From the NCBI RefSeq assembly GCF_900112415.1, contig NZ_FOLV01000003.1, positions 166,860 through 230,859 on the forward strand: 64,000 nucleotides of DNA, in the 5' to 3' direction. A program made the translations under genes and the position numbers. Source of the stretch: Bacillus sp. 491mf (lineage in GTDB: Bacteria; Bacillota; Bacilli; Bacillales; Bacillaceae_G). Below the pieces are notes generated by a model that was not told where the DNA came from, did not search any database, and worked only from the letters and a program-made list of their open reading frames with translations. Positions 31,268 through 58,683 of the stretch are shown piece by piece; positions within the stretch are counted from its first letter, which is position 1; the number at the start of each line of letters is the position of its first letter.

Positions 31268-31310
31268 AATTATATGAATAGTTCATTTCCAGCATAAGGG
31301 AGTGATTGTG

Positions 31311-32048: not shown

Positions 32049-32056
32049 GTGAATAT

Positions 32057-32602: not shown

Positions 32603-32617
32603 ATAGGAGAGTTGTCT

Positions 32618-33589: not shown

Positions 33590-33600
33590 GGGACTCGTAG

Positions 33601-37658: not shown

Positions 37659-39293
37659 TTAGGTTAATTTTTCAACAATAAGGTTTGGTATTTCACACGT
37701 ATGAGTTCCATTCCATAATAAACGTATTTCTTTTAGGAGATCTGCATTTTCTGGAGATATTTGTAAGCTTAAGTTTATGAAATTTTTTCCGGCTTTTACT
37801 TTAGAAATATCCTGTGAAGTTAATATAATAAACTGTGGACTCCATACTCCTATTGCAAAAGTGCCAATGGCTGAATCGTAATTTGTAGAGGAATTTAGTT
37901 CAAAAGAGAATAAATATTCACCTGGATGCATTTTCCCAATATATTGCCCAATAAACATTCCAGGAGAGTCGATTCCTTGTTCCACTCTACGAGTTATAAA
38001 TTGTCTTGTGTGGTCGTATACTAATTTTCCTGTAAACGAATTGATTTTTTCTGTGCTGAAGATAATTCGCTGTCCTGAAGCTATAGGTAAGTCTGTTTGA
38101 ATGGAGTTGTCGCGAAAACAATCCTCCTGAGTAAGGTTTAAAGAGATTTCATGATTGTACTGTTGTTTTCTGTGAGCTATAATGTATGGTTGAATGTTTT
38201 TTAAGAAGTTTTTGGTTCTTACTAAAGCTGCTTCTCTTTTGAATATATTTCCTAATATATTTGATTGATTATGAGCAAGTTTTTCTAATTCGGTAAAGTT
38301 ATTCATTGTTTTAAGAACAAATTCTTTCATCTCTTCTGTGTCAGAACACATACCTATTGTTTTAAGGGCGGAATTGCTTACGCCATTGTCCCTTGCTTCT
38401 TGAGCAAGACCTGATTTTTCTAAAAATACTGTGGGAACTCCCATACTTAAAGCTTCGATAGGAGTGTAGTGCACATGATAGTTAGAACCGAGACCAAAGT
38501 AAACAAACATTCTACTTTCAGCAATCTTTGAATAAAAAAGATTGTCTTCTGTATGTCCGACTACTTTCTCCGAAATATCTTTGACTATATTCCTTGAGTT
38601 TTTTCCTAACACAATAAAAGGGATATCTGAAAATTTTTCGTTAAAATCTTTGAATATCTTATTAGCTGCTGGATTACCGTCCAAATATGAGATTGTAGTA
38701 CTAATAAAGTGTTTAGAGTTTCTTCCTTTCCATTTGAATCCTAACCTTTCATTGGAAACAAATGCATTTAGATAAAACTTATTTTTAGTAATTCTAGGAT
38801 CTTCAGGAACGTCCAAGCTCTTTAGTATTGGGCACCATACATATTTATCTGTTTCTACTATCTTATCTATATTAATGTTTAATCTAGCCATTTCGTTTGT
38901 ATAGGTAGTATAATCACCGTGACCAAATACTCTAAATATGATATATCCTTGATACCATTTTGTGATGTTTTCTAAAATATCTGGGTAGTTGGAAATAAAT
39001 ATTATATCGAGCCATTGATTAATAAGTTTAGCCTCATCTGGATTTAATTTCCCCTTTTTTTCAAGTATGTTAATTCTTCTAATTTTTTCAACGATATTGG
39101 TAGGTAAGGTACAAGATTTTCGCCAATGAGGATACAATCTGTCACTTTCATTGTCATAATTACTATCATACTTCAACCAAAAGGGGTCTCCTAAGCATGG
39201 GATTACCTCTGCTCCTGCTTCTATTAACAATGGAACTTCTTCGTATCTCAAAGTTTGATGAGTACACAACCAATACACTCTTGGGGAAAGCAT
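37659..39293 (-). CDS. Putative GT-B glycosyltransferase with extra C-terminal beta domain
   Basis: A 544-residue protein, start ATG 39293 after AAGGTGGTG. The central region (about residues 190-370) looks like the donor-binding half of a GT-B glycosyltransferase: a strand/turn pattern around FIVLGKNSRNIV, then YFGLGSNYHVHYTPIEALSM, GVPTVFLEKSG. The last ~150 residues (from about 400) are beta-rich with no GT motif (TGKLVYDHTRQFITRRVEQG, PGEYLFSFELNSS) and may bind carbohydrate. The exact family and sugar are unknown. It lies between manC and the DUF4214-type glycosyltransferase, same strand. Confidence 0.6.
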   Translation of the reverse strand: MLSPRVYWLCTHQTLRYEEVPLLIEAGAEVIPCLGDPFWLKYDSNYDNESDRLYPHWRKSCTLPTNIVEKIRRINILEKKGKLNPDEAKLINQWLDIIFISNYPDILENITKWYQGYIIFRVFGHGDYTTYTNEMARLNINIDKIVETDKYVWCPILKSLDVPEDPRITKNKFYLNAFVSNERLGFKWKGRNSKHFISTTISYLDGNPAANKIFKDFNEKFSDIPFIVLGKNSRNIVKDISEKVVGHTEDNLFYSKIAESRMFVYFGLGSNYHVHYTPIEALSMGVPTVFLEKSGLAQEARDNGVSNSALKTIGMCSDTEEMKEFVLKTMNNFTELEKLAHNQSNILGNIFKREAALVRTKNFLKNIQPYIIAHRKQQYNHEISLNLTQEDCFRDNSIQTDLPIASGQRIIFSTEKINSFTGKLVYDHTRQFITRRVEQGIDSPGMFIGQYIGKMHPGEYLFSFELNSSTNYDSAIGTFAIGVWSPQFIILTSQDISKVKAGKNFINLSLQISPENADLLKEIRLLWNGTHTCEIPNLIVEKLT

Positions 39294-39455
39294 ATAAATA
39301 AGCACCACCTTAAAGATGTTTTTATTATAAGATTTTTTATATTTTGTACTATTTCATTTAAAACTTAATTTACTGCTGAAAAGGAAATTTAATTTTACAG
39401 GAATATTTTTATATTTCGATATAAATTAAATGTTTTGGTTTTCTTATTTTTGCTT

Positions 39456-41156
39456 TTAATTGATAATTAATTTGGTCATTAGCGTATAATATTCTTGTGC
39501 AATATCGATCCAATTTCTCCTAAGTATGTGTTGAATTGCACTTTTTTGTTGTTCTAATAAATTGTTATCGTGTCGCCAAAGTTTTTGGATTGCGAGCATA
39601 ATTTCATCTGTAGAGTAGGGGTTAAATGTTATAAATTTTTCGATATCTGTTATAACCTCTTCAACAACTTCAATCCTGCTCACTGCTACAGGAGTATCCA
39701 TAATTAAAGACTCTAATAGCTGAAAAGGACAACTCCCTTCAAAAAGTGTTGGAACAATGGTTCCTATCGCATATTTATATAGAAGTGGAATATCATTTGG
39801 TTCAATCCTACCTAAAAAAATGACACTATCTTGTATATTTACATTATTACAATTGTTAAGTAGCGATATAATTTCTTTCTCTTTAGGACCATAGCGGAAG
39901 TGATCAGTCAGAACTAGACTAAGGTTGGATGAAGAACCTTCAGTGATTTGTCGGAAGTTCAAAAAGGCTTCAATAAGTCGATCATGATTTTTATGTAGAC
40001 GAATAACGGAAGGGTAAACAATATAGTTGTTATATAAATTATATTTATCCCTAAATAAAACTTCATTATCTGAATCTATGACATTGTATTCCTCAACTGG
40101 AGGTGCCAATCTAATGACATGAGTTTTTTCCTTGGGTAATTTCAAGAACTTCAATCCTTCATGATTTCTCGTAAAGATAGAATTAAAAACCACTTTTTTA
40201 GCTTTTTTAGCCACTTTTTTAGCGTTATCTGTAAATTTATCGTAGAAGTCTGGCTGCCTTGTATATATATCTTTAAAATGCATATAAACTAAATCATGTA
40301 AACAAGCGATAAAGGGTTTGTTTAAATTTAGCGCCAAATCCATACCTATATAAGGAACGATCCAAATATCCACATCAATATTTTCATTTACCCAGTCTAC
40401 AGTTTCGAACTTTTGGACAGATAATCTGTTAGGAAAAGATAAAAAGGTCTTTTTAAACCCATTGTTAATATCTATATAGTTTTGTTTAGTAGTTACAACA
40501 GTTATAGTTACATTTTCGTCATGACAAAGTAAACCTTCTGTTAACCGGATAATAAATCGTCCGATACCTTCTCCATCAAAATGTTTACCTACTTTCACTG
40601 AATATCCAAGAAAAAACCCAATTTTTACAGAAGGGACTTGGGAAGGTTGTTTAGTGTTTGGGGATATTAAAGTGTTGAACGTTACAATATCAGATTCTAA
40701 AAGCAGACGGCATTCTTTAGATAATAGAAAGTTTACCATTAAATTTTTTCTTTGAACGCCAGAAACTAAGTTATTCACATGAATTTGAATTTCCTTTAAA
40801 TCTGGGGTTCGATTTAGGAATTGTTGGTATAATGAATAGGTAAATTCCATATCATCCAAATTGTAAAACCTATAAATTAAATCGGAAATTAACCCTGGTT
40901 TCGTTGTCTCTGTTTTTTCTGATTGGGTGTGTTGTGTATACAGATTAAGTGCTTCTTTTGTTAGCATGATTTCTTTAATGATTTCTATTCTTTGTGTGTG
41001 GGTTAGTTTTTTTCTATAGTAATTTAGCTCCTCATGCTGGGGCTTCCTGTATAAAATTTGCCTAAAAAGTTCATGAATAAAAGCTTCTTCTGATAATCTA
41101 ACTGCTTTTCGTAAAATATTAATGAGTGTATCTGAAGGTGAAGTAGGATTATTCAT
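39456..41156 (-). CDS. GT4-type glycosyltransferase with N-terminal DUF4214-like repeats (paralogue 1)
   Basis: A 566-residue protein. Two N-terminal helical repeats (IHELFRQILYRKPQHEELNY and SLYQQFLNRTPDLKEIQIHV) resemble DUF4214. A GT-B glycosyltransferase follows: acceptor half beginning KIGFFLGYSVKVGKHFDGEG, donor half with YPSVIRLHKNHDRLIEAF and the nucleotide-sugar motif PTLFEGSCPFQLLESLIMDT. ATG 41156 lies 8 bp after AAAGGAG. The gene at 43.2-44.9 kb is a close paralogue in the same orientation; the sulfotransferase gene sits between them on the other strand. GDP-mannose-derived donors are plausible from context. Confidence 0.8.
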   Translation of the reverse strand: MNNPTSPSDTLINILRKAVRLSEEAFIHELFRQILYRKPQHEELNYYRKKLTHTQRIEIIKEIMLTKEALNLYTQHTQSEKTETTKPGLISDLIYRFYNLDDMEFTYSLYQQFLNRTPDLKEIQIHVNNLVSGVQRKNLMVNFLLSKECRLLLESDIVTFNTLISPNTKQPSQVPSVKIGFFLGYSVKVGKHFDGEGIGRFIIRLTEGLLCHDENVTITVVTTKQNYIDINNGFKKTFLSFPNRLSVQKFETVDWVNENIDVDIWIVPYIGMDLALNLNKPFIACLHDLVYMHFKDIYTRQPDFYDKFTDNAKKVAKKAKKVVFNSIFTRNHEGLKFLKLPKEKTHVIRLAPPVEEYNVIDSDNEVLFRDKYNLYNNYIVYPSVIRLHKNHDRLIEAFLNFRQITEGSSSNLSLVLTDHFRYGPKEKEIISLLNNCNNVNIQDSVIFLGRIEPNDIPLLYKYAIGTIVPTLFEGSCPFQLLESLIMDTPVAVSRIEVVEEVITDIEKFITFNPYSTDEIMLAIQKLWRHDNNLLEQQKSAIQHILRRNWIDIAQEYYTLMTKLIIN

Positions 41157-41165
41157 CGTAGTCAC

Positions 41166-41931: not shown

Positions 41932-42678
41932 ATGAATGAAGGACAGTCTAGCAAGAAAAGAAGTCCTTTATTATTATTTCTTCATATCCCTAAAGCTGGG
42001 GGAACTACATTGACAGATTTGATTTGTAGACAATATTCAAATAATATACATTATGATGTGAATATACACGGAATACTTCCTCAAGGGGTACTTTCTTATA
42101 AAGAGCAATTAACAACTGCTGACACTTTATGTGGCCACTTTTTGTTTGGCATTCATCGTTACCTTTCTAGGCCCTTTACCTATATTACAATGTTGAGACA
42201 TCCGGTTGAACAAGTAATCTCATGGTTTTATTTTGCTCATAAGAATTCAAACCAGTATAAAGAATTGTTTTTTGAAGAGACGATTGATGAGTATGTAAGC
42301 AATCCAAAATTTAATTATTCTACAGTCAATCTTCAAACTCGCTGTGTTACAGGTAATGATGTTGCTGATTTGCAGGTGGCGAAAGAGCATATTGAAAAAT
42401 ATTTTTCTGTGGTAGGGATTACTGAGTTATTTTCTGAATCTTTATATATTATGAAAAAGGAATTTGGATGGAGGAATATTAATTATAAAAAGTTAAATGT
42501 TAATACAGAAAGACCTTTAAGAGAAGAAATTCCGCAGAAAGTGATTGATAAGATACTGGAAAAAAACGAGGTAGATGTGCAATTATATGATTATGCTAGA
42601 AAAAAATTAGAAAATAAGATTGCTTCCCTAGATACAAACTCAATTAGAGAATTAAGTTTGTTTAAAAGGGAACATTAA
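41932..42678 (+). CDS. Carbohydrate sulfotransferase (Sulfotransfer_2-like)
   Basis: Predicted to move a sulfonate group from PAPS to a sugar hydroxyl. The 248-residue soluble protein has the 5'-phosphosulfate-binding loop HIPKAGGTTL at residues 18-27 and the 3'-phosphate-binding motif LRHPVEQVISWF with Arg89 and Ser97. Both are in the order and spacing of the Golgi-type/heparan sulfotransferase family. No transmembrane segment or signal peptide, so it acts in the cytosol. ATG follows AAGGAGATG. PAPS-making genes lie 6-9 kb away. The gene is the only + strand gene among minus-strand neighbours and is bracketed by repeat copies 6 and 7. Confidence 0.85.
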   Translation: MNEGQSSKKRSPLLLFLHIPKAGGTTLTDLICRQYSNNIHYDVNIHGILPQGVLSYKEQLTTADTLCGHFLFGIHRYLSRPFTYITMLRHPVEQVISWFYFAHKNSNQYKELFFEETIDEYVSNPKFNYSTVNLQTRCVTGNDVADLQVAKEHIEKYFSVVGITELFSESLYIMKKEFGWRNINYKKLNVNTERPLREEIPQKVIDKILEKNEVDVQLYDYARKKLENKIASLDTNSIRELSLFKREH

Positions 42679-42705
42679 CTTGTCCTTTTTTTAGGCTATA
42701 AAAAT

Positions 42706-42900
42706 ATAGAAATTCAAGTTGAAAAACGACATAAAACCATTCTTTTTCGATGGGCGAGAGCATCTGGCCATGCATAGAAGCGGTCAGGGCCCTTTTTTGC
42801 TACATGCAAAATGAAACAAAGAGAGAAAGCAAGCGTAGCCGCCTTTTATTTCTATAGCCGCAATTTATGTATTGGAAAATTAAAATGGATTTATATAGAT
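42706..42900 (+). repeat. ~190-bp intergenic repeat, copy 7 (right of sulfotransferase gene)
   Basis: ATAGAAATTCAAGTTGAAAA, GAGAGCATCTGGCCATGCAT, AGAAGCGGTCAGGGCCC, TTTTTTGCTACATG, ending TTAAAATGGATTTATATAG. Direct orientation relative to copy 6. Confidence 0.8.
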
Positions 42901-43198
42901 ATGCTTCTTTTTGTATAAGAACTTGGTGAAAGACTAGATTATTAATACACAGAAGGAGGCATTTTTTATAATAAAAAAGAACATAAAGTAAAAGTTCAAT
43001 TCGTGGGAGATTTACTCTAAAAGTTTATAAAATCAGTGGTGAAAATATGAATGGTATACCTATAAAAAAGCTAATTTCGGATAAAAAGATAAGAGTATGT
43101 CATATTATTTGAGAGTTTAAAGCAGCATAGGATGATATGTAAGAATACTTGACTCAGTAAAGTATCCTTACATACATTTCAAATATAAAAACAAAAGG
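42901..43198. other. Intergenic stretch with possible gene debris and a hairpin
   Basis: An AAGGAGG string at about 42954 is followed by short frames (KVKVQFVGDLL, KISGENMNGIPIKKLISDKK) broken by stops, perhaps a remnant. ATGTAAGAATACTT/AAGTATCCTTACAT (about 43137-43174) forms a long imperfect stem just past the stop of the minus-strand glycosyltransferase gene and may end its transcript. Confidence 0.4.
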
Positions 43199-44941
43199 TT
43201 ACGTACAAATAGTTTTATTAAGAATGTCATAGTATTCCTTTGCGACATCGACCCATCTTCGATTTAAAGCAGTGCTGATAGCAGACTTTTGCTGGATTAA
43301 CATTTGTTTTCCGTTTTTGTTTAACTCATATATTGCTTTTGATATTTCTTCAACTGAGTACGGATTAAATGAGAAAAAAGCAGACATGTTTGTAACTACT
43401 TCACTTGTAACTTCTATTCGGCTAGCGGCAATCGGGGTATCAAGTATAAGTGATTCGAGAATAGGGAAAGGGCAGCTTCCTTCAAAAAGTGTGGGAACGA
43501 TTGTCCCTAAAGCATATTTGTATAAGGAAGGCATGGTGTCTGACGGAACCCTATTAAGAAAGACAATACTGTTTTTTATTTGTTCATTAGTACAATGCAG
43601 ATAAACATCTGAAAGATGAATTGGTCTATTACGATAGTGGTCTGTAAACACTAATTTTAAATTAGAAGGTGGCTTCTCAAGGGATTGCTTGAATTTTATA
43701 AATGCCTCAATAAGAAGAGAATGATTTTTATGCGGACGAATAACCGATGGATAGACAATGTAATCGCCATATAATTTGTATTTATTTCTAAATGAGCTTT
43801 CATCATATATATGATACGCAGTGTATTCTTCTACAGGAGCTGCCAATCTAACAACATGAGTTTTTTCGATAGGTAGCTTTAAAAATTGTAACCCTTCATG
43901 GTTTCGTGTAAAGTTAGAAGAGAATACGATGGCAGAAGCTTTATCGACTAATCTGTGGATAAAACGATCCAGACGGTAACAAAACTCATCCGTATTTCCT
44001 TGATAATATAATTCTTGAAAGTGTAAGTGGACTAAGTCGTGTAAACAAAGAATAATAGGTTTATCTAAATACATAGCTAATTCTAAGCCGACATATGGCA
44101 CAATCCATACATCTACAGGTAATTCGGTATTAATGAATTCCATACTGTCAGATGCATAAAAGATAAGTCGCTCAGGGTATAAAAGCACGAGTTGTGAAAA
44201 TAGATTACGAAGATTACGAAGATTTATTTTATTTGTTACAACATAAATTTTTATGGTTGGATCATACTTAAATAGTCCCTCTGCTAATCTTGTACTAAAT
44301 CGACCAATTCCTTCCCCTTCTAAATTGGCGGGATAAGCCAATCCTAGGAAAATTCCAATGTTTTTTATACTTTTGTTTTGATCTCGTTCTCTACTTTTTA
44401 TATGCAAGTTATTGATAGAATTAGCGTCGGTTAGTATTTTTTGAAATTCATTTGTTGTTAGTATTTTCTTTATTATCTCTATTCTTGATTGTTTTGTTTT
44501 TAAGCAAACTGATAACTGTTGGACTTCTGTTTTTATTGGGTTACGAGCTAAAAATTCATTGTATAAAGCATGGATAAAGTGTAATGCATTTGATAGGAAG
44601 AATGAATGAATGAAGCTACTTATCGTTTTGGAAGCATTAGGAGGAGGAGAGGGAGGGGTTTTTTGGCTGTATAAACCTATCGCCTCTCTGCTTGTCAGGA
44701 TTGCGATTAAAATTTGTTTTTTGGCTACACCTTTCGCAAGTGTAGTAAAAAAATGAAAGAAACCTTTTTCGTCTGGTTCACGATGCAGTATTTGTCTATA
44801 TAATTCCCATACAAAATCTTCATGATTAAGGGTCCATATTTGATGCAATAATTCAATAATATTTTTACTATTCGTTTGATTAAGTATGTTGCTGAAATCA
44901 TTGTTTCTATTTCTTAATCTTACTATGTCCATCGTTCCCAT
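43199..44941 (-). CDS. GT4-type glycosyltransferase with N-terminal DUF4214-like repeats (paralogue 2)
   Basis: 580 residues, same architecture as the gene at 39.5 kb: helical repeats VWELYRQILHREPDEKGFFH and LYNEFLARNPIKTEVQQLSV, then a GT-B core starting NIGIFLGLAYPANLEGEGIG. The shared strings VAPVEEYxx-type loop (RLAAPVEEY), YPSVIRPHKNHSLLIEAF and PTLFEGSCPFPILESLI show a duplication followed by divergence, especially in the linker. A Pro-rich hinge (PPSPPPN) separates the N-terminal repeats. ATG 44941 is used; an ATG nine bases further in is possible because the ribosome site is weak. Confidence 0.8.
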   Translation of the reverse strand: MGTMDIVRLRNRNNDFSNILNQTNSKNIIELLHQIWTLNHEDFVWELYRQILHREPDEKGFFHFFTTLAKGVAKKQILIAILTSREAIGLYSQKTPPSPPPNASKTISSFIHSFFLSNALHFIHALYNEFLARNPIKTEVQQLSVCLKTKQSRIEIIKKILTTNEFQKILTDANSINNLHIKSRERDQNKSIKNIGIFLGLAYPANLEGEGIGRFSTRLAEGLFKYDPTIKIYVVTNKINLRNLRNLFSQLVLLYPERLIFYASDSMEFINTELPVDVWIVPYVGLELAMYLDKPIILCLHDLVHLHFQELYYQGNTDEFCYRLDRFIHRLVDKASAIVFSSNFTRNHEGLQFLKLPIEKTHVVRLAAPVEEYTAYHIYDESSFRNKYKLYGDYIVYPSVIRPHKNHSLLIEAFIKFKQSLEKPPSNLKLVFTDHYRNRPIHLSDVYLHCTNEQIKNSIVFLNRVPSDTMPSLYKYALGTIVPTLFEGSCPFPILESLILDTPIAASRIEVTSEVVTNMSAFFSFNPYSVEEISKAIYELNKNGKQMLIQQKSAISTALNRRWVDVAKEYYDILNKTICT

Positions 44942-45064
44942 CTCTTTTCATCGTGGTGTATTTATATGAAAGATAGCTGTAGCAAGGAGGTATTTCTATA
45001 GCTATTAATGGGATATGTTGTTTTTAAACAAAGGCTCATTATAAGTTTAAGAGAGGGGCATATA

Positions 45065-46192
45065 TCATTTTTTCATGCTTACCTCGCTTAATGCTTCTTT
45101 TATTTTTAAGCTAATATATCGAATGTCATCATCTGTTAGGCTTCCGTAACTTGGAACATTAATACCCTGAGTAGAAATACGATTTATTATAGGGAATTCT
45201 GATGTTTCCTGTAAATTTTGGTAAGGAGGCAATGCATGCATAGGATAGAAAAAAGGTCTAGTTTCGATTCCTTTATCTTGTAAGCGATCCATTAACAAAT
45301 TCCGTTCGTTTTCAGTAAAATCTTTACATATTATGCTGAACATCCAGTATACATTTTTAGCCCATTCTTTTTCGATAGGTAATATGAGACGTTGATCATC
45401 TTTTAGATTTTGTATATATTGATTAGCGATTCTAATTCGTTGTTGAATATGCCAGTCAATGTTCTCGAGTTGTGCGCAGCCGATTGCTGCCTGAATGTTG
45501 GTCATACGATAGTTATATCCTATAACTGGAAACCAATATTTACGTTTTAAGTCTATTCCTTGTGACTTTAAAATTCGAATCTTTTCAGCTATGTGGTCAT
45601 CATTAGTAGTAATCATTCCACCTTCACCGGTTGTAATAATTTTATTGCCAAACAAACTAAAAGTAGCGCAATTACCAATTGCTCCTGTCATTTTTCCTTT
45701 GTATTGCGCTCCTACAGCCTGAGCAGCATCTTCTATAACAAATAAATTATATTTCCTTGCCAATTCTTTAAGAGGGTCCATATCAGCTGGATGACCATAG
45801 ATGTGAACGGGAATAATTCCTTTTGTATGCGGTGTGATTTTTTCTTCTATCTTCGCAGGATCAATATTCCATGTTGTTGAATCAGAATCAATAAATATAG
45901 GAGTTCCTCCACAATAGACGACTGCATTTGCTGTTGCAACGAATGTAAAAGTCGGAATAATCACTTCATCACCTTCTTTAATGCCATATGCTAAAAGAGC
46001 AAGATGTAAAGCGGTTGTTCCGTTACTACAAGAAATAGCATGTTTCACGCCGCAATACTGTGCAAATTGTTCTTCAAACTTTTGAATATATGACCCGTTT
46101 GAAGATATCCAATTAGAATCGAGGCAGTCTATGACATATTGTTTTTCATTTCCATTTAATATAGGACTAGCGATAGGATAAAATTTTGTCAT
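45065..46192 (-). CDS. per: GDP-perosamine synthase-like aminotransferase (RfbE/Per)
   Basis: A PLP-dependent DegT-family sugar aminotransferase predicted to convert GDP-4-keto-6-deoxymannose plus glutamate to GDP-perosamine. The 375-residue protein has the likely PLP lysine Lys184 in SLFGNKIITTGEGGM, the PLP ring contact IEDAAQAVG, and strings close to V. cholerae RfbE (NWISSNGSYIQKFEEQF, GYNYRMTNIQAAIG, RPFFYPMH). ATG 46192 has GGAGG upstream; an in-frame extension to 46279 looks like leader sequence. It lies 83 bp after gmd, which supplies its substrate. The specific product is inferred from motif similarity and the gmd neighbour. Confidence 0.83.
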   Translation of the reverse strand: MTKFYPIASPILNGNEKQYVIDCLDSNWISSNGSYIQKFEEQFAQYCGVKHAISCSNGTTALHLALLAYGIKEGDEVIIPTFTFVATANAVVYCGGTPIFIDSDSTTWNIDPAKIEEKITPHTKGIIPVHIYGHPADMDPLKELARKYNLFVIEDAAQAVGAQYKGKMTGAIGNCATFSLFGNKIITTGEGGMITTNDDHIAEKIRILKSQGIDLKRKYWFPVIGYNYRMTNIQAAIGCAQLENIDWHIQQRIRIANQYIQNLKDDQRLILPIEKEWAKNVYWMFSIICKDFTENERNLLMDRLQDKGIETRPFFYPMHALPPYQNLQETSEFPIINRISTQGINVPSYGSLTDDDIRYISLKIKEALSEVSMKK

Positions 46193-46275
46193 CAAAATGT
46201 CCTCCTTACATAAAAATAAAGTTAAAGTACAAGTCAAGAGGGATAGGTAATATAAAAAGGTTATAAAATCAAATC

Positions 46276-47274
<999 letters not shown>

Positions 47275-47390
47275 TCAAAACTTTTATCTCCTTTAATCAT
47301 ATGTTTCATATACCTTGACTGCTACTGAAACACCGTTTATTTTCATCATTACATGAATAGGATAGGGAGTACGGAAGAACTCAGTAAAAT

Positions 47391-47431
47391 AGAGAGGCGA
47401 AACAATTTTACAATTATTGTTTCGTCTCTCT
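47391..47431 (-). terminator. Hairpin terminator between the GT4 gene and gmd
   Basis: AGAGAGGCGAAACAAT and ATTGTTTCGTCTCTCT form a 16-base stem with one mismatch; on the minus strand ATTTTACTG follows. It ends the transcript of the sulfate/PAPS/GT unit, so gmd-per probably has its own promoter. Confidence 0.75.
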
Positions 47432-47457
47432 AGAATAATGAATAGATGATTTATACA

Positions 47458-48585
47458 TTAAATAAATTTTAATTCTGTCAATCGTTTTTCAATCATGTTT
47501 CCAATCAGATTTGGTGAAAAATAGGTCATTATGGTCTCTTGTCCTTTCCTTGCGATAAGATTACATTGTGTTTGATTGAAGATAAGTTGACGCATCAAAT
47601 AAACAGCATGCTCAATATCTGGCTCAGCCCATATTTGATAATGTTTGTAAGGACCGTAATTTCGTTTTATTGGAACGAGGGTATAATTGACAGGATAAGA
47701 ATTATCTGCGTTCATAAAATCAGTATTACCAGACCAATTTGTACCAATGACTGGTTTTCCTAAATACATTGCTTCTGCTAGTACAAGTCCAAATCCTTCA
47801 GAACGGTGTAAAGAGACAACACAGTCAACCGATTGAATTAAGGCATTTACTTCTCCGCGATTTAATGATTGATTAATGAGATAAATATTACGATTATCTC
47901 GAATTAGATGCTGAATCTGATTCACTTCTGCAAGATTATAATTTGAATTATTGATTTTTAAAACAAGCCCAACGGAAGAATCATCCTTAGAAAACGCTTT
48001 TTGAAATGCTTGAATAGACGCAACTGGATTTTTACGTTGTTGTATACTTCTAGGATCATACATGGAAAGAAATAAAAAGCGATCTGTCGGTAAATTAAAG
48101 TATTCACGACTTATACCTTCAGGGCATTCTACTTGGATGCAATGCGGGATACGAGTTACAGGAAGATTTGTTTTTTTGGATACAGATTCTAGTACAAAAG
48201 ATGAGGGAACCCATACTTCATCGACAAGTTTGAAGCTAGTATACCATTCCCTAGGAAGCTCCGGAAGCTCCCAATGCCAATAACCAATATTGTAGCGACC
48301 GTTAAAAAATTGATGTCCGAGCTGCTTATGAGCGGTTGGAAATACATCTGGATTTATATGAAAGATATTCACATCGTGGATAGGAGCGGTTATTTCTTTA
48401 TGTTTCCAAGAGAAATCTAATGATTTTACATGTGGAAGCGAATAATTAATAATGCCAAATGGAATATTTGTACTTTGAATGGACTTTGCTGCTAGGCGAC
48501 AAGATTCTCCTAGTCCAAATTCGGCACGTGCATATCCTACTAAATTAATGCCTTTTTTTAATGGCGTTGCTTCAGTTTTTTGCAT
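47458..48585 (-). CDS. GT4-family glycosyltransferase
   Basis: A 375-residue cytosolic GT-B glycosyltransferase. It opens [20 protein letters not shown], an acceptor-side signature, and has the donor-binding [20 protein letters not shown] followed by NWSGNTDFM. The start overlaps the end of sat by 14 bp, so the glycosyltransferase is translationally coupled to ATP sulfurylase. That coupling links sulfate activation to glycan assembly. Donor and acceptor are unknown. Confidence 0.85.
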
Positions 48586-49753
48586 TGCTTCGCTTCATTC
48601 CTTTCATCAACACCTCCGCCACTTCAGGACGAGTAAACTCAGATGGCAAAATTTGTCCGCTACGAAGTATTTCTCTAACTTGGGTACCACTTAAAATAAC
48701 ACGATCAGTATTAGAGTGTGGACATGTTTTGACAGAAGCCATGTTCATACACTTTTTGCAATAAAAACTATGTTCGAAAAATAGTGGTTGAATTCCAATT
48801 GCAATGGGATCAAAATTACGAAAGATTTTTTGGGCATCGTATGTTCCGTAATAATTTCCTACTCCTGCATGATCACGGCCGACAATGAAGTGTGTACAAC
48901 CGTAATTTTTTCTTACAAGCGCATGCATAATAGCTTCACGAGGACCTGCGTAACGCATAGCGGCAGGATAGATAACGAGGCGGGTGCGATTAGCTGGATA
49001 ATAGTTCTTCAGTAATACTTTATAGCTTTCCATTCGAATATCTGCAGGGATGTCATCTTTTTTTGTTTCTCCGACAAGTGGATTCAATAATAACCCGTCA
49101 ACGATTTCAAGTGCTGTTTTTTGTAGGTATTCATGTGCACGATGCACAGGATTTCGTGTTTGAAACCCTACGATAGTTTTCCAACCTAAATCGTAAAACA
49201 TATTTCTTGTTTCTTTTGGATCCATATAAAAATCTTGAAAATTTTTGTGTGAAGGTTTATTTAACAAAGAAATAGGTCCGGCTATATATATATCACCTTG
49301 TTCATATAATTTTTTTACACCTGGATGAGCAACTTCTGTTGTACCAAATACGAGTTGTGCTTCTTTTTGTTTATCATAATGAAACATATCTGTTATTTGT
49401 ATAAATGCATAAGGAATCTTATCTTCTCCGTAAAGAATCACTTCGGTTCCAATACGTAAATCTTTTGCTTCATCTTGTGTGATAGGTAAAGTGATAGGAA
49501 TTGTCCATGGTGGTCCATTTTTTAAATGCATAGTCATTAAGACGCTTTCATAATCATTTCTATCCATAAAACCGATGAGCGGACTAAAGCCGCCGTTTGC
49601 GATTAGTTCAATGTCAGAAATACTCCAAGCAGAGATAGTTAAAGAGGGAAGTTCGTTTACTTTATTTAAATATTCTTCACGCTCCGCTCCTTGTAACTCA
49701 CGGTTAATTAGTATACCCCCATGAGGCAAAATTGTATCTGTTGGACAGTCCAT
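48572..49753 (-). CDS. sat: ATP sulfurylase (sulfate adenylyltransferase)
   Basis: Activates sulfate with ATP to adenosine 5'-phosphosulfate (APS). The 393-residue single-chain enzyme has the ATP/sulfate motif [12 protein letters not shown] and [13 protein letters not shown], plus a C-terminal Cys pair pattern CKKCMNMAS ... CPHS suggesting a bound metal. ATG 49753 is chosen: GGAGG lies 6 bp upstream, and the longer in-frame reading to 49819 has no site. cysC ends 11 bp upstream. No APS/PAPS reductase, sulfite reductase or uroporphyrin methyltransferase gene is nearby, unlike Bacillus assimilation operons. Confidence 0.93.
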
Positions 49754-49764
49754 CATAATCCTCC

Positions 49765-50370
49765 TTAAATTGATAAGTAGTGATGTTTTTTGAGAAAATC
49801 TACGACTTGTATGGCGCATGCTTCAGCTGAGCAATGATTAGAATCAAGAGTAATTTCTGGATTAAGTGGTTTTTCATAAGGGGAGGAAATTCCGGTAAAT
49901 TCGATAATCTCTCCATTTCTAGCTTTTTTATATAATCCTTTTGGATCTCTGTTTTCGCAATTTTCTAGAGAGCAGTCGATATAAACTTCAATAAACTCGT
50001 CAGGATGTACATTATTTCTAACCGCTTCACGCTCGTTGCGGTACGGTGAAATGAATGTTGCCAACACGATAATGCCACAGTCTACAAACAATTTTGATAC
50101 CTCACCTACGCGGCGGATATTTTCTTTACGATCTGTTACTGAAAAACTAAGATCTTGGTTTAATCCTTTTCGGAGATTATCTCCATCAAGAATATAAGTG
50201 GAAATTCCTAATTGATGTAGCTTGCTTTCAACAATATTGGCAATTGTGGATTTTCCAGATCCTGATAAACCTGTAAACCAAACAATGCAGCTTTTATGTT
50301 TATGCAAATTTTGTCGATCCTTTTTTGTAATTGAAAAGTGATGATAATATAAATTTGTTTGTTTTTCCAA
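49765..50370 (-). CDS. cysC: APS kinase
   Basis: Phosphorylates APS to PAPS, the donor for sulfotransferases. The 201-residue protein has the P-loop GLSGSGKS at residues 34-41 ([16 protein letters not shown]), [23 protein letters not shown] and [18 protein letters not shown], all typical of CysC. TTG 50370 is preferred because AAAGGAG lies 8 bp upstream; an ATG at 50388 would place that site inside the gene. In one operon with sat, and downstream of the SLC13 permease gene. Confidence 0.93.
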
Positions 50371-50458
50371 AAAAATTTCTCCTTTCATATAAAGTAAAAA
50401 ATGACTTAGTAATCAAGAACGTTTTTATCAATACAAAGTTAGTTTGTGTTTGTTTTAT

Positions 50459-52252
50459 TTACATATAAAACGGCCAAAAGTATGGGATGAGTAGGACAGA
50501 AATAATCATGAAAAGGAAACCCAGTGGGAGACCTATTTTAAGAAAATCTACGAATTTATAGCCACCTGCTTGATAAACGATTAAATTTGCTTGATATCCT
50601 GTAGGTGTAGCGAAACTAGCAGAGGCAGCGATTGTAATAGCTATAATAAAAGGTTCGGGACTTAAAGACAGTTGTGTAGCAACGGAATAAGCAATAGGGA
50701 AAATGAAGGCAGCCGCCGCCGTGTTTGATAAAAATTCGGTACTAATCCATGTAAGTAAATAAATGATAGCAAGTATTGCTGTTGGACTAAATGTTGTGGT
50801 TTCGCCTACGAGTATGTTAGCGAGGTAATTAGCGATTCCTGTTTTCTCCAAAGCGCTTGCCATTCCAAGAGATGATCCAATCATGATAAGTAAGCGTAAA
50901 TCTACATATTTTCTTGCTTCTTGTACTGAAATGGACTTTGTAATGAATAATAAGATAACACTTAAAAAAGAAGCAGTTAAAATCGGTAGAACTCCTATTC
51001 CTGCACATAGTATCATAAGAAGGAAGATAAGAAGCGGCATAAAGGAGATCATCTTTTGTTTTCTAGAAGGATTTTTAGGGGAACCAGTTTCGTGGGAAAG
51101 AAAGTAAAAATCATTAGAGTATTGGTTCTCTATGAAAAATTTGTTTTCTGATAAAACATATAAAATATCTCCTGTTTTTAACCGAATAGATCCTATTTTA
51201 GAGAGGATTCTTTTACCGTTCCGAAAAACAGCAATTACAACAGCGTTGTATTTTGAGCGAAACTGAATTTCTTTAACGGTTCGATTGGATAAATAAGATT
51301 GTTTGGATATTACTATTTCTGAAAGAGTGATGACATTATTGGAGGAGTTTTCGAGACTTATTCTAGAACTGAGGTGTAATGTAAAACCCTCAACTTTTTC
51401 TAAGTCGGAAATAGTAGAAATGTCTCCTGTAAATAACAAGTAGTCATTTTTATTTAGTATATAATCGCTAGAAATTGGGAGTATTATGTCGTCGCCTCTC
51501 ATAACTCCAATTAAATATAAGCTTGCAAGGTTACGTAAGTTCGCTTGCTTTATTGTTTTTCCTATAAGTGGGCAACCTAATTCAACTTGAACTTCTGCTA
51601 AAAATGCACTTTTATTCTCTTCATCTATTTTGCCGCCTTTTTTGTACTCCGGAAGGAGTTTGCTTCCTATAAATACCATGAATAGAATTCCGATCACAGT
51701 ACATGGGATACCGATGATTCCTAATTCGAACATAGAAAGTCCATGATTACCTTGTTTTTTTAGTAATGAGTTTACAACAATATTTGTAGATGTACCGAGC
51801 AATGTACACATCCCGCCCATACTAGCTGCATATGCTAAGGGAATTAACAGTTTAGAAGGAGCTAGGCCGATTTTTTGCGCCCAATTTTTTATTATTGGTG
51901 TAAGAATTACTATAATCGGTGTATTGTTAATAAATGCGGAGAGACTAGCTACAGGTATCATCAACTTAAGAATTGCTTTTTTATGACTTCTCTCATGACC
52001 GATTATTAACCGTGGAATTTGTTTGATAAACTCGTTCTTATTAACGGAAGAAGCTATAATTAATAAGGCTCCAATTGTTAATGTTCCTTCATTTGAGAAC
52101 CCATCTAAAGCCTCAGAGGGAGCTAGAACTCCAAACATCATTAAAGAAACTAGTCCGCTGAACATAACGATATCAGCTGGAAACTTCTCGCACATCAAAA
52201 CTATAAATGTAATAAAAATAATGAGGAGTGTAATTATACCGTGAATGGTCAT
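50459..52252 (-). CDS. SLC13-type anion permease with TrkA-C (RCK) domains, probable sulfate importer
   Basis: A 597-residue membrane protein. About five N-terminal helices with the SLC13/ArsB-like SAFINNTPIIVILTPIIKNW, a cytosolic middle with two TrkA-C-like units (ELGCPLIGKTIKQANLRNLA and SYLSNRTVKEIQFRSKYNAV), then C-terminal helices with EFLSNTAAAAFIFPIAYS. This permease architecture is used for sulfate and other anions in several bacteria. It precedes cysC and sat on the same strand, 88 bp apart, which argues for sulfate. ATG 52252 follows AGGTG. Confidence 0.82.
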   Translation of the reverse strand: MTIHGIITLLIIFITFIVLMCEKFPADIVMFSGLVSLMMFGVLAPSEALDGFSNEGTLTIGALLIIASSVNKNEFIKQIPRLIIGHERSHKKAILKLMIPVASLSAFINNTPIIVILTPIIKNWAQKIGLAPSKLLIPLAYAASMGGMCTLLGTSTNIVVNSLLKKQGNHGLSMFELGIIGIPCTVIGILFMVFIGSKLLPEYKKGGKIDEENKSAFLAEVQVELGCPLIGKTIKQANLRNLASLYLIGVMRGDDIILPISSDYILNKNDYLLFTGDISTISDLEKVEGFTLHLSSRISLENSSNNVITLSEIVISKQSYLSNRTVKEIQFRSKYNAVVIAVFRNGKRILSKIGSIRLKTGDILYVLSENKFFIENQYSNDFYFLSHETGSPKNPSRKQKMISFMPLLIFLLMILCAGIGVLPILTASFLSVILLFITKSISVQEARKYVDLRLLIMIGSSLGMASALEKTGIANYLANILVGETTTFSPTAILAIIYLLTWISTEFLSNTAAAAFIFPIAYSVATQLSLSPEPFIIAITIAASASFATPTGYQANLIVYQAGGYKFVDFLKIGLPLGFLFMIISVLLIPYFWPFYM

Positions 52253-52928
52253 ATGATTCACCTATTCATAAGTTGTTTTAACTGAGGAATATTGAACATG
52301 TAAAAGATATAACAATGACATCTTGGTTAAATCACTTAAAGGAGAGTAGCTTAGAGTAGTGCCTTAATACTTTATCGTACCTTTACTTTCGTTATAGAAT
52401 ACGTAGATGAAAAAAACGTAACTATATCCCAATGTTTTATCAATTCCATTATATAAAACAGTCATTATCTTTATATGTTATTTTTAGTGAATTGACACTG
52501 TTTTTGTGAACTTATACATTTGCAAGCTAGATTTGTAGAAAAGAAGTTAGTATTTCTTATTAAGTATGAAGGAGTTGAATTTAATTGAGGAATTTTTGAA
52601 AACTTATTTCAATGATAATTTTGTATAAATTATATCAATACTTGAAAATGGTGAGTATGCATCCTTAAACTTTATTTTTTAGTTCTTCTTTCTTGAAATT
52701 CCACATAGCTATTGCTGAAAAGGTTTTATTCTTACGTCGAAACATTAGAAAAGCTGTGGAATTTATATAAGTATGTAGTCTACTGGAAAGTAACAAATAG
52801 TATGGTGATTAAAAGGTGACAAGTGTATAAAGTATCTGCTAGTTCTATTTAATTAAGAATATTTTTGATTGAGTGAACACATGAATAAATTATGAGTAAA
52901 ACGATTGACTGTAGAGGAGGGATAATTT
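52253..52928. other. 676-bp gene-free divergent region
   Basis: Lies between the leftward sulfate/PAPS operon and the rightward GT2 gene and should carry both promoters. It is uniformly AT-rich. I see no repeat, riboswitch or convincing SigA promoter. AGGAGGG at about 52916-52922 is the ribosome site of the next gene. Confidence 0.4.
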
Positions 52929-54203
52929 TTGAATCCAAAAGTGTCAATCATTCTTACTAGTTATAATAAACCTGCATTAGTAGGAAAAGCGATTGAAAGC
53001 GTGTTAAGACAAACTTTAGATGAATGGGAACTTTTTATAATGGATGATCATTCGAATGAAGAAACAGTAAATGTTATTAAACAATATTTAAATGACCCAA
53101 GAATCACTTATATAAATAGCTGCATAGAGGACGAGGAACGCTATAAAAAGACGAGGTATGCTGTACTTATCAATAAAGCTATTCCGTTAACAAAAGGAAT
53201 GTATATTTCTTATTTAACAGACGATACGGTCTATGTTCCGACGAGGTTAGAAGAAATGGTATCTTTTTTCAACATGCACTCTAAGGTAGATATTATTTAT
53301 TCATCTCAACAAGTGAAAGTTGTAAACAACCAAGTGAAGCTGCTTTCTGAAAGAGTAAGAAGAGCTGAACGTATATTATATCAAGCAGCCAACGTTGTTG
53401 ATCACTGTTCTGTTATGCATACGCGTGCAATTTTAGAAAAAGTTCAGGAGAAGTATGGGGAGTATTGGGATGAAAGCCCTGTTCATTGGTATAATGGAGA
53501 TGCGGCTTTTTGGGAGAGATTAAACACCTTTCAGCCATTTCACCCTGTCGATAAAGTACTTGATATAACATATAAAACGCCTTACTCTTTTCAAAATCTA
53601 TATAGTAATTTACCTATAAAAATTCCGAATGGGACTTTAATAATGGGAGGGAAAGAAGAGATTTTTTTGATTGATCAGCAGCAAAGAAGGGTCATTACAA
53701 ATGAGATGTTTACGTATTTTAAGTACAAATTAAAGAAGGTTGTTATGATACCTGATCCTTTTTTATATAGCTATGTAGAAGGGACTCCTATTGATGATCC
53801 AACTATTATTCCCAATTTGCGTATCGTTCAAAATGAACAAAATAAATTTTTTTATCTCGAAAATAATAAAAAAAGACCAATAGTTAATACTTTTGCTTTT
53901 CGTAAATTTAAATTTTCTTTCTATGAAGTTATTAAAATAAACTCAACTTTACTAGACCATATACCTCAAGGATTACCAATCTATCCTATTTTATCGCAGA
54001 ATACTTGCTTGCCGGAAAATAAGGTATTTATATATAATAATCAATGTTCCATTACAATGAATTGTAAGCTTCATCTTATCGATAAAAAAATATTGAAAAA
54101 GCTTAATCTTTTAAATGATTGCATATATGTTTCAAGAACTGAGATGGAGGGGTTTGAAAAGGGCGAATCCATTAGTTTGTATTTTAAAAGATTTCTTAAA
54201 TAG
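52929..54203 (+). CDS. GT2 glycosyltransferase with three C-terminal ~55-residue repeats
   Basis: A 424-residue cytosolic protein. The first ~215 residues are a GT-A glycosyltransferase: VSIILTSYNKPALVGKAIES, FIMDDHSNE and the YLTDDTVYVP metal motif (D-D). The remainder consists of three similar units beginning near GTLIMGGKEEIFLI, NLRIVQNEQNKFFYL and NTCLPENKVFIYN, each ending in a Gly-x-(P/S)-I turn (VEGTPI, PQGLPI, EKGESI). TTG 52929 follows GGAGGG. A bcr1-like element follows. The repeats may bind an acceptor glycan or protein. Confidence 0.8.
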   Translation: MNPKVSIILTSYNKPALVGKAIESVLRQTLDEWELFIMDDHSNEETVNVIKQYLNDPRITYINSCIEDEERYKKTRYAVLINKAIPLTKGMYISYLTDDTVYVPTRLEEMVSFFNMHSKVDIIYSSQQVKVVNNQVKLLSERVRRAERILYQAANVVDHCSVMHTRAILEKVQEKYGEYWDESPVHWYNGDAAFWERLNTFQPFHPVDKVLDITYKTPYSFQNLYSNLPIKIPNGTLIMGGKEEIFLIDQQQRRVITNEMFTYFKYKLKKVVMIPDPFLYSYVEGTPIDDPTIIPNLRIVQNEQNKFFYLENNKKRPIVNTFAFRKFKFSFYEVIKINSTLLDHIPQGLPIYPILSQNTCLPENKVFIYNNQCSITMNCKLHLIDKKILKKLNLLNDCIYVSRTEMEGFEKGESISLYFKRFLK

Positions 54204-54567: not shown

Positions 54568-55542
54568 TCAAACCGTTTTTGAAGCAATCTTAATCATGTT
54601 CCTAACTCGATGACCAAATGTATGTTGTTCTATCACTATTTTTCGACCTTTTTGGGCGATAGTCTTCCTTTGCTCTTCGTCATCCATATAGATACCTAAT
54701 TTGTGTAAGCAATCCTCGTAATCTAGATAAGATATCATTTCTTCTTCGGTAAAGAAGAAACGGAGATCGGACTTTTCTTCTATTAGTTGAAAAGCCTCAC
54801 AGGATGCAATATCAAATGTTCGGTTATTTATACTTTCGCTAATAACTCCATGCGTATTTTGGTTAAGCCAAAAATTATGAGTTCGATGAGGATTTAACAC
54901 AATTTTAGCTCCATTATAATAGTAAGAGATCTTTTGTGGTTCAATCCATGTATCTTTAATGATAACTCTCGGGTTGTCTCTCCATTTTTTTTGTAGTCTG
55001 TTATACCAACCTTTTCCAACGAGTGTAATTTGATATTTAGTATTTTCTAAAAGAAAATGAATAAAATTTACCCTTGTAGGATATGGATATCCTACAAGAA
55101 GTAAATCACTTTTGTATATATTTTCAACAGGAAGAGGCTTAAAGATTGTTGCATTTGTTCCTAATGGCAAATGGAAGACATTTGGATGAATAGATTGATA
55201 GTGCTTGAGAGCACCATTATCAATGGTAAAAATATAATCAAACCTATGAATCATTTGAATAGTTTTATCAATATAAAAAGGATCCTCGGTCAGCCAGCAT
55301 GCCAGTTTGATATCATTTTCTTTTAAATATTGAATAGCTGATAAGGAGAGATGATCTCCTAATATTGTTAAAACCAGCTGTGGCTGAAAATTAGCAACAA
55401 TCATCTTTAACTTCTCTATACTCTCTAATGGATGAAAGTGAAGCCATTCATAATCACTATTACTTAGCCCAGCTTTTATACTTTGATCAAAATATTCGTA
55501 AATTCTTGGGTAGCCGGAAGAGATATATAATAATTTCACCAT
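54568..55542 (-). CDS. CgeB-like glycosyltransferase
   Basis: A 324-residue protein of the CgeB family, which in B. subtilis is a sporulation-associated, mother-cell protein affecting the outermost spore layer. Visible signatures: LLYISSGYPRIYEYFDQSIK, CWLTEDPFYID, FDYIFTIDNGALKHYQSIHP, PLGTNATIFKP, and the donor-side NRTFDIASCEAFQLIEE with the C-terminal glycosyltransferase helix. ATG 55542 follows GGTGGTGC. It lies directly before two predicted spore-surface proteins on the same strand. Confidence 0.82.
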   Translation of the reverse strand: MVKLLYISSGYPRIYEYFDQSIKAGLSNSDYEWLHFHPLESIEKLKMIVANFQPQLVLTILGDHLSLSAIQYLKENDIKLACWLTEDPFYIDKTIQMIHRFDYIFTIDNGALKHYQSIHPNVFHLPLGTNATIFKPLPVENIYKSDLLLVGYPYPTRVNFIHFLLENTKYQITLVGKGWYNRLQKKWRDNPRVIIKDTWIEPQKISYYYNGAKIVLNPHRTHNFWLNQNTHGVISESINNRTFDIASCEAFQLIEEKSDLRFFFTEEEMISYLDYEDCLHKLGIYMDDEEQRKTIAQKGRKIVIEQHTFGHRVRNMIKIASKTV

Positions 55543-55605: not shown

Positions 55606-55911
55606 TTAAAAGCGATCTTCTTGTTCTCCAAAAACTAATGTTGAGGCTGTTGGACGATCTCCACCGCCTCCTGGAATTTCTGGACTGTACGAGACACTTT
55701 CAATATCGTTGCATCCGAGTTGCAGAATAATAGTAGAAATAGGAGTCGTCATGTCTTCCTCTAGTAATGTAACTACACAACTTTGTGGGTCAAAGAATGC
55801 AAAAGTAGCAGGTCCATACATATGACCTGATTTACCTACAATGGTTACAACAGTTCCTGGGAGTAATGTAGACAATATAAAGCATGCGCTTCCATCACAT
55901 TTTTGTGCCAT
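55606..55911 (-). CDS. Small Cys-containing protein, probable spore-surface component
   Basis: A 101-residue protein I cannot assign to a named family. It begins MAQKCDGSACFILSTLLPGT and has alternating beta-type strands (VVTIVGKSGHMYGPATFAFF, SCVVTLLEED, STIILQLGCNDIESVSYSP) that suggest a small beta-barrel, perhaps Sm-like. A Gly-rich tail (PGGGGDRP) follows. Four cysteines are present, and no signal peptide or membrane segment. GGAGG lies 12 bp before the ATG. Its place between a CgeB-like and a BxpB-like gene suggests an exosporium or coat protein; that is inference. Confidence 0.55.
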   Translation of the reverse strand: MAQKCDGSACFILSTLLPGTVVTIVGKSGHMYGPATFAFFDPQSCVVTLLEEDMTTPISTIILQLGCNDIESVSYSPEIPGGGGDRPTASTLVFGEQEDRF

Positions 55912-56200: not shown

Positions 56201-56725
56201 TTAAACAACTTGTATTGCTCGTAGAGAAGCGAATTGAACCTGTGCAGAATCTAAATCTAGTTTGTCCCAGATAACATCAACGCCAATGATAGTACCAGTA
56301 GTTGCTTGGAAAAGAACGGAGCCAGTTAATATATCAGCAAATCGACCTGTAAATCCACTGCCGCCGGTACCTGGAATCGCTTCAACAGTTGAATCTGCCA
56401 CCCTAGAGAATGAACCAGGAATTTGAGCAGAATCGGTAGTAGAGGTTAATACACCAGTGAAGTCGACTAAGTCAGGGGGAATAATTGAAAAAGGAATATT
56501 GAAAGTTACAGTATAGTCAATTTGATATACACCAGGTACGTTAATCAATAATCCATTCGTTGTATTTACTGTATTATTAAGTGGACCGCTTGAAGGAAAA
56601 GTTATAGTATTTGTGCCATTAGCCAATGTTTGTGCTGCTTCAGTAAATATAAATCCATATGCTGGGGGAGGCGGTGTGGGGAAGTCAACGGGAAATGCCG
56701 GAGGGCAATTGAAATGGTTACTCAT
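56201..56725 (-). CDS. BxpB/ExsF-like exosporium jelly-roll protein
   Basis: A 174-residue protein. A Cys/Pro-rich N-terminus (MSNHFNCPPAFPVDFPTPPP) leads to AYGFIFTEAAQTL and a C1q/TNF-like beta domain with GLLINVPGVYQIDYTVTFNI, matching the layout of BxpB/ExsFA (FGFAFNAS... GIRILRAGIYQISYTLTIS) and the BclA C-terminal domain. No collagen-like repeats. GAGGTG precedes the ATG. In B. anthracis bxpB lies near the rml genes; here a related protein sits within the glycosylation island and may anchor or carry glycosylated filaments. Confidence 0.7.
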   Translation of the reverse strand: MSNHFNCPPAFPVDFPTPPPPAYGFIFTEAAQTLANGTNTITFPSSGPLNNTVNTTNGLLINVPGVYQIDYTVTFNIPFSIIPPDLVDFTGVLTSTTDSAQIPGSFSRVADSTVEAIPGTGGSGFTGRFADILTGSVLFQATTGTIIGVDVIWDKLDLDSAQVQFASLRAIQVV

Positions 56726-58628: not shown

Positions 58629-58683
58629 ATTAAATTGTGAAATATGTTAATTATCTTTAGTGACATATGAGGAAGTGAAGAAC

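Follow-up and report, generated by a model that had tools for sequence, protein, structure and literature searches.

A 64-kb window of the Bacillus sp. 491mf genome (64,000 nucleotides of contig NZ_FOLV01000003.1) carries an island of glycan genes in which a sulfotransferase gene is accompanied by sat and cysC, whose products make its sulfo donor 3'-phosphoadenosine 5'-phosphosulfate (PAPS). The best reading of the island is that it probably makes a sulfated glycan for the spore surface. That these genes act in glycan sulfation, whatever the location of the product, is very likely. The island would build a spore-surface glycan that contains rhamnose and (N-acetyl)perosamine. An SLC13-type permease would import sulfate into the mother cell, Sat would make adenosine 5'-phosphosulfate (APS), and CysC would then make PAPS. 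The Sulfotransfer_2 enzyme would move the sulfo group from PAPS onto a hydroxyl group of a sugar in the growing glycan, and the sulfated glycan may be carried on ExsF- or CgeA-like proteins of the exosporium or crust. An earlier note on this DNA (the original prediction) had inferred a dedicated sulfation module that feeds a glycan, and genome comparison supports this well.

The supply genes are read from the minus strand in the order permease, cysC, sat and a glycosyltransferase family 4 (GT4) gene, followed after a gap of ~200 bp by a GDP-mannose 4,6-dehydratase, a DegT aminotransferase and a DUF4214-GT4 gene. The permease (50459..52261) is of the SLC13/DASS anion type with TrkA_C domains (CitMHS 1.9e-73, TrkA_C 5.4e-24, Na_sulph_symp 1.5e-23) and has relatives in sat-permease-cysC operons; its probable substrate is sulfate. 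The APS kinase gene cysC (49765..50388) was identified with PF01583 (APS_kinase, 1.4e-68) and with NF003013 above its cut-off, and the ATP sulfurylase gene sat (48572..49756) with ATP-sulfurylase (2.7e-97). The longest open reading frame (ORF) for sat begins at 49819 and overlaps cysC. Because ATGATG at 49756 comes just after a GGAGG that immediately follows the cysC stop, the start is more likely there, and sat and cysC are better read as consecutive, non-overlapping genes. The GT4 gene (47458..48585, minus strand, Pfam) shares 14 bp with sat (48572-48585). The PAPS-dependent sulfotransferase gene (Sulfotransfer_2, PF03567 2.4e-12) lies on the plus strand at 41932..42678, and its end is 5.9 kb from sat. 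This layout, including the leftward operon, the 14-bp overlap and a sulfotransferase ~6 kb away among glycosyltransferases, is as the original prediction described it, with ORFs in place and Pfam assignments above cut-off. Sat and cysC share one cluster with the sulfotransferase, glycosyltransferase and nucleotide-sugar genes, within an island of at least 28 kb that also holds rhamnose and perosamine genes.

The sulfotransferase scored 48 bits against a PF03567 cut-off of 22, and its reading frame is open along the family length. It contains both PAPS-binding motifs claimed for it earlier (HIPKAGGTTL and LRHPVEQVIS). When the window protein was aligned with 39 relatives, K21, G24, H69, P91 and S97 were invariant (40/40) and R89 was conserved in 39/40. 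The alignment to heparan sulfotransferases is weak. By analogy with those enzymes we take K21 to be the 5'-phosphosulfate-binding (5'-PSB) lysine, H69 the catalytic histidine, and R89 and S97 part of the 3'-phosphate-binding (3'-PB) site. At the sequence level, the protein keeps intact the residues that PAPS binding and catalysis should require. A pattern scan of genome contigs for the sulfotransferase gave 27 pattern matches with no relative among them.

Sat and CysC are the same enzymes as those of the assimilatory pathway. The two genes could serve ordinary sulfur assimilation, or be a sulfate-scavenging duplicate, with the glycan locus merely neighbouring, which we consider highly improbable. 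A single cysH query found nothing better than E 0.36 in the window, in agreement with the reported absence of a PAPS/APS reductase nearby, and a relocated assimilatory operon was rejected on this ground. Sulfite reductase and siroheme families were not found among the 30 Pfam-scanned window proteins (of 75 ORFs), no search having been aimed at them. A family of 19 genomes, the nearest to the window among those compared and named here after its member G380, was examined for both pathways. Eighteen of the 19 carry cysC (PF01583), the same 18 carry PF01507, and cysC and a strong cysH hit lie on the same contig no more than 3 kb apart. An extra full-length cysC was found only in G401, which has three copies altogether, and in G402, which has two as well as two fragments; further PF01583 matches in G133, G320 and G341 scored only 21 to 22 bits. 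G401 and G402 each place an extra cysC in the slot between fabI and cotZ that is described below, and each has a separate cysC-cysH set, with sat lying between the two genes in G402. The PAPS genes in the slot of these two genomes are therefore additional to assimilation.

We compared 96 sat contexts, taken from loci chosen partly by sulfotransferase and with overlapping loci not merged. CysH lay within 8 kb of 0/15 sat genes near a sulfotransferase, as against 64/81 of the others. Some sat-permease operons elsewhere do lie near cysH (4 coded HP and 1 coded HPQ of the 96), a point in favor of the assimilatory reading. In the sat tree (96 sequences), the window sat grouped with those of loci L168 and L005 (support 0.997), apart from the cysH-linked sat of G401. 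The cysC tree (65 sequences) grouped the window cysC with the cysC of the G401 island (support 0.981), and the cysH-linked cysC of G401 was not its sister. Three further large plasmids from Bacillales that carry sat-cysC served as controls (Priestia CACC119, Cytobacillus spongiae CY-G and B. velezensis DMB05); a PAPS reductase gene lies nearby in each, so sat and cysC alone are no sign of sulfation.

The association of sulfotransferases with PAPS genes was examined in 397 genomes of the order of genome G002, presumably Bacillales. PF03567 was found in 47/397 genomes, 45 of them above cut-off. CysC was present in 47/47 of these genomes versus 276/350 others. Two or more cysC genes were detected in 27/47 genomes with PF03567 versus 49/350 without (Fisher 3e-10, no kinship correction), the copy counts being lower bounds since nine candidates were scored per genome. 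The PF03567 matches were then taken with their surroundings, at most 20 kb each and less at some contig ends, from 44/47 genomes, giving 46 regions; weak matches in G095, G150 and G201 were left out. Using tblastn with one query each, cysC was identified in 16/46 regions and sat alone in 3 more, so that 19/46 hold cysC or sat, and cysH in 0/46. The chance expectation for cysC near a sulfotransferase is ~0.2/46, assuming about one cysC per 4-Mb genome.

This co-occurrence and clustering across genomes argues against the idea that the sulfotransferase and the PAPS genes are unconnected, the enzyme drawing on the general PAPS pool or acting on another small molecule or a protein. So does L168 (in G282), where a sulfotransferase, a TauE permease, cysC and sat fall within 6 kb, near sugar genes and a Peptidase_G2 protein, the sulfotransferase lying ~3.3 and ~3.9 kb from cysC and sat with the permease in between. 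Two other loci favor a lack of connection. L005 (Cytobacillus oceanisediminis) has TauE-cysC-sat beside sugar genes and L063 has a PAPS module among sugar genes, both with no sulfotransferase recognised. A further case for it is L197 (in G180), which holds the closest sulfotransferase relative found (50% identical, phmmer 2.5e-78) in a near-orthologous cluster with relatives of six window glycan genes. Taken together, we regard a lack of connection as quite unlikely.

Several results weigh against a sulfated spore glycan, and those that concern the module itself are given here. No sat or cysC was found within 10 kb of the L197 sulfotransferase or in the further flanks read, which means that linkage is not required. 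A sulfotransferase without sat and cysC was one half of what the original prediction had named as counter-evidence, and it is this half that L197 supplies. The one cysC detected in G180 adjoins cysQ, with no cysH or sat seen beside it. Twenty of the 47 sulfotransferase genomes have a single detected cysC. The window cysC, the G401 island cysC and the cysH-linked cysC of G401 share a 15-member clade (support 0.747), and the sulfotransferase-linked sat genes are scattered in the sat tree with no single clade, which implies more than one round of assembly or movement of these modules. Finally, a single-sequence structure model of the sulfotransferase had a predicted local distance difference test (pLDDT) of 38.5, too low for a fold search.

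Related loci showed further recurring arrangements. An operon of sat, an SLC13/TrkA-C permease and cysC, often with a CysQ-type phosphatase, recurs in Bacillaceae (L063, L024, L001, L017, L021, L029 and others), with hosts that include Geobacillus jurassicus, Lentibacillus halodurans and Aquibacillus rhizosphaerae. It lies beside sugar genes in several cases and near cysH in some genomes. In several genera and on Priestia plasmids, cysC modules are accompanied by a similar cassette of a WecB-type epimerase, a polysaccharide dehydratase, an SDR (short-chain dehydrogenase/reductase family) reductase and a further epimerase (L112:7171-10962, L202:12768-14200, L005:2982-6782, L225:846-4640 and L223:956-4747). 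From its appearance and annotation this cassette seems to be a UDP-N-acetylfucosamine-type route, unlike the perosamine route of the window. Two small proteins, each in a sulfation island (L168:4877-5347 and L112:17602-18048), resemble each other by eye in their N-termini (...SIPVSSTPALFATLGLN... in the first, ...SIPLSSTPALF... in the second). Neither has a Pfam match, and they are possibly spore-surface proteins.

It is context that points to the spore as the location of the window glycan, namely the neighbouring genes, the chromosomal slot and a set of Priestia megaterium plasmids. The permease gene lies 3.3 kb from a CgeA-like gene and 3.9 kb from a weakly ExsF/BxpB-like gene. The first (55606..55911, minus strand, 101 aa) matches the spore crust protein CgeA (PDB 9l9d, E 2.9e-5); it had been called BxpB-like. 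The second (56201..56725, minus strand, 174 aa) had been called BclB-like and instead has a weak match to the exosporium proteins ExsF (9h3d) and BxpB (8d02) at E 0.0013 each. Both earlier labels were rejected; given the PDB matches, they shift by one gene. The CgeB-like gene of the original prediction was found at 54568..55542 on the minus strand, adjoining the CgeA-like gene. It encodes a glycosyltransferase (Glyco_trans_1_2 2.7e-24, DUF3880) that is 69% identical to the product of a gene in the G401 island.

The slot was identified by synteny. The gene order prpE-ftsW-fabI-[variable]-cotZ-yjcA recurs in the G380 family, with CotZ confirmed by PF10612 in G380, G401 and G402. In 14/19 genomes the fabI-cotZ gap is compact (~2 to 3 kb). 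In G279 it reaches ~8 kb and contains sugar genes, with no sulfation gene found in it, and no cotZ match was obtained for G071 and G133 in the 20 kb read. The gaps of G401 (~18 kb) and G402 (~30 kb) are filled with glycan genes, and both islands carry cysC, that of G401 being 74% identical to the window cysC. The G402 island has sat-cysC, a TauE permease (PF01925 9.6e-41), one PF03567 sulfotransferase and one PF13469 sulfotransferase; it holds the only PF03567 match among the 19 genomes. The window island starts on the same side of fabI (34566..35342, plus strand), which forms the left edge of the slot, and runs for at least 28.6 kb to the end of the window. On contig C32 of G402, L118:7967-9912 is a degenerate cysC/sat pair whose sat pieces are 79-88% identical to the window sat. 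Next to it are rmlABCD-like genes and an ORF that contains an HRSGSS motif and is placed in no family by Pfam.

Plasmids of Priestia repeat the pairing of sulfation genes with spore-coat proteins. The window island had no megablast match on plasmids. With tblastn, relatives of the sulfotransferase were found on 32 plasmids, of which 28/32 are from Priestia, among the matches listed. The Sulfotransfer_2 enzyme on pBM600 of P. megaterium QM B1551 is 36% identical to that of the window (PF03567 5.9e-20). P. megaterium strains without an exosporium lack pBM600, which encodes a BxpB orthologue, and spores of a bxpB null strain looked normal (PMC4674009). pBM600 resembles the window island in being exosporium-linked and in combining a BxpB orthologue with a Sulfotransfer_2 enzyme, and differs in being a plasmid. 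The string 'sulf' occurs 0 times in the main text of that paper (PMC4674009). The 40.7-kb stretch read of pBM600 had no sat or cysC match and no annotated TauE, its gene table being incomplete. The Y18-01 plasmid carries a Sulfotransfer_1 gene together with cysC and TauE; no more than ~13 kb away are two CotX-domain proteins (PF07552) and two more genes annotated as spore coat protein, and one annotated as exosporium protein D follows further on. Sat had no match on this plasmid. In the 2020WEIHUA_L plasmid, cysC and TauE accompany two CotX-domain proteins, and sat is fragmented. Mes11 pBMG2 carries a sulfotransferase and TauE alongside genes annotated as spore coat, its sat and cysC both being fragmented, and KF18 has cysC and TauE with a sulfotransferase on the same plasmid. 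The plasmids have one replicon type (rep_cluster_237) in common and so count as one pairing of sulfation with the spore coat apart from that of the window.

The module could also sulfate a glycan of growing cells (a capsule, an exopolysaccharide (EPS) or an S-layer glycan), with the adjacency of spore genes incidental, and the remaining points of difficulty bear on this choice. While 19/46 sulfotransferase regions hold sat or cysC, 0/46 match the one CotZ query used, so the glycans that the module serves across the order as a whole have no visible tie to spores. CotZ had no significant match in the window island; the cotZ side of the slot is seen in G401 and G402 and is not reached in the window. 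The two G402 sulfotransferases had no blastp match to that of the window; the slot is thus shared and the enzyme is not an orthologue. The G401 slot has cysC without sat or PF03567, and on the Priestia plasmids sat is missing or fragmented. Sites resembling sigmaE or sigmaK promoters numbered 16 in the window versus 16.9 in shuffles, which is not above chance and gives no sporulation signal. A locus of Aquibacillus (L024) with sat-permease-cysC-cysQ looks by eye like an EPS locus, and a neighbour there falls into NKWYS, a family whose annotation is putative capsular polysaccharide synthesis. An ORF of L024 had been the sole motif match for a sulfotransferase in the first 101 loci and was rejected, since Pfam assigns it to NKWYS (PF10364) and to no sulfotransferase family. 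Against a growing-cell glycan stand the proximity of the permease to the CgeA-like and weakly ExsF/BxpB-like genes, the position of the window island in a slot that ends in cotZ in relatives, and the plasmid pairing with coat proteins. In addition, no flippase or polymerase family was found among the 16 Pfam-scanned proteins from 35615 to 58232. We consider a growing-cell glycan unlikely and prefer a sulfated glycan of the spore surface.

A sigmaE-like match at 56844 (minus strand) lies ~120 bp upstream of the ExsF/BxpB-like gene, the total of such sites being at chance. A sigma-70 pattern scan found 75 sites versus 89.5 expected, and terminators numbered 11 versus 9.4 expected.

The remaining genes suggest what the glycan would contain. 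Genes for dTDP-rhamnose of the rmlA-rmlC-rmlB-rmlD type occupy 31302..34455 on the plus strand, to the left of fabI (Pfam NTP_transferase, dTDP_sugar_isom, GDP_Man_Dehyd/Epimerase and RmlD_sub_bind). The RmlB product matches the dTDP-glucose 4,6-dehydratase of PDB 6bi4 across its full length. A mannose-1-phosphate guanylyltransferase/mannose-6-phosphate isomerase type protein for GDP-mannose supply (35615..36991, minus strand; NTP_transferase 4.4e-25, MannoseP_isomer 4.8e-17), a GDP-mannose 4,6-dehydratase (46276..47250, minus strand; PF16363 1.2e-135) and a DegT aminotransferase (45065..46279, minus strand) together point to GDP-perosamine, the last having its best PDB matches to perosamine synthetase (3bn1, 3dr7 and 3dr4, 446-449 bits, with the next type at 323). 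A NeuD/PglB/VioB-type sugar acetyltransferase (58660..59340, plus strand; TIGR03570 202 bits, cut-off 160.8) points to the N-acetyl form. A second DegT sugar aminotransferase (59722..60912, plus strand) was identified with Pfam and NCBIfam. The sulfotransferase is flanked by two DUF4214-GT4 fusions (39456..41165 and 43199..44941, both minus strand, Pfam), and the L197 sulfotransferase directly adjoins a relative of these. Two further glycosyltransferases are of the GT2 type (52929..54203, plus strand, and 56961..58232, minus strand, both by Pfam). A 549-aa protein (37659..39308, minus strand) had no match in Pfam or NCBIfam; it is glycosyltransferase-like by context only and has a close relative in the G180 cluster (L197:10382-12016, phmmer 3.5e-244).

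The original prediction spoke of the B. cereus group, a placement that is doubtful and probably not exact. The window FabI shares 84.6% identity with that of PDB 5ycr, which we take to be the B. anthracis enzyme, and 82.9% and 82.6% with those of G402 and G380. The window RmlB is visibly divergent from 6bi4 in alignment. The strain probably stands next to the B. cereus group, outside its core, and may be a distant member. Among the compared loci, FabI identity to 5ycr did not exceed 83.3%, and a core genome of the B. cereus group is therefore not among them.

PAPS genes joined to a sulfotransferase in a glycan cluster are a known principle; the spore-coat location is new. NodPQ-NodH of rhizobia similarly has dedicated PAPS genes feeding a carbohydrate sulfotransferase, and differs in acting on a lipo-chitooligosaccharide signal and in having a bifunctional NodQ. 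The capsule of the marine Vibrio sp. KMM 8419 has chemically established sulfation and a structure solved by nuclear magnetic resonance, and its authors call PAPS genes plus a sulfotransferase a hallmark of sulfated polysaccharide synthesis (PMC11641403). The polysaccharide cluster described there resembles that of the window in uniting sulfotransferases and a rhamnose operon with second copies of the PAPS genes; it differs in its CysN/CysD type ATP sulfurylase and ABC exporter, and in making a Gram-negative capsule and not a spore glycan (PMC11641403). The wps-1 cluster of Actinoplanes missouriensis likewise has two sulfotransferases and serves a developmental structure, and deletion of AMIS_7390, a gene of the sat/APS kinase family, harms sporangium formation (PMC13390465). 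This is an actinomycete sporangium matrix and a Wzx/Wzy polymer, its sulfation being putative like that of the window glycan (PMC13390465). According to the same 2026 paper, bacterial sulfated polysaccharides had been reported exclusively in cyanobacteria (PMC13390465); synechan of Synechocystis is one such, and differs from the window glycan as a cyanobacterial EPS (PMC8205485). The BclA exosporium tetrasaccharide of B. anthracis is similar as a rhamnose-containing glycan on an exosporium protein; it differs in consisting of three rhamnoses and anthrose, with no sulfate mentioned in the abstract (PMC6222408). Searches of the open-licence literature listed no paper on a sulfated endospore glycan, nor one on this module in Bacillaceae.

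Extending the reading beyond this strain, we think the chances slightly favor several Bacillaceae lineages making sulfated endospore glycans from cassettes of PAPS genes plus a sulfotransferase that become inserted in spore-coat loci or move with exosporium plasmids. If so, the sulfate esters would provide spores with a negative charge that is fixed and depends little on pH, with a bearing on how they adhere, aggregate, bind metals and proteins, and persist. Bacterial sulfated polysaccharides are rarely reported, and spore sulfation would carry this modification into the dormant stage of Firmicutes. Sulfation would then be an unrecognised, exchangeable layer of spore-surface chemistry.

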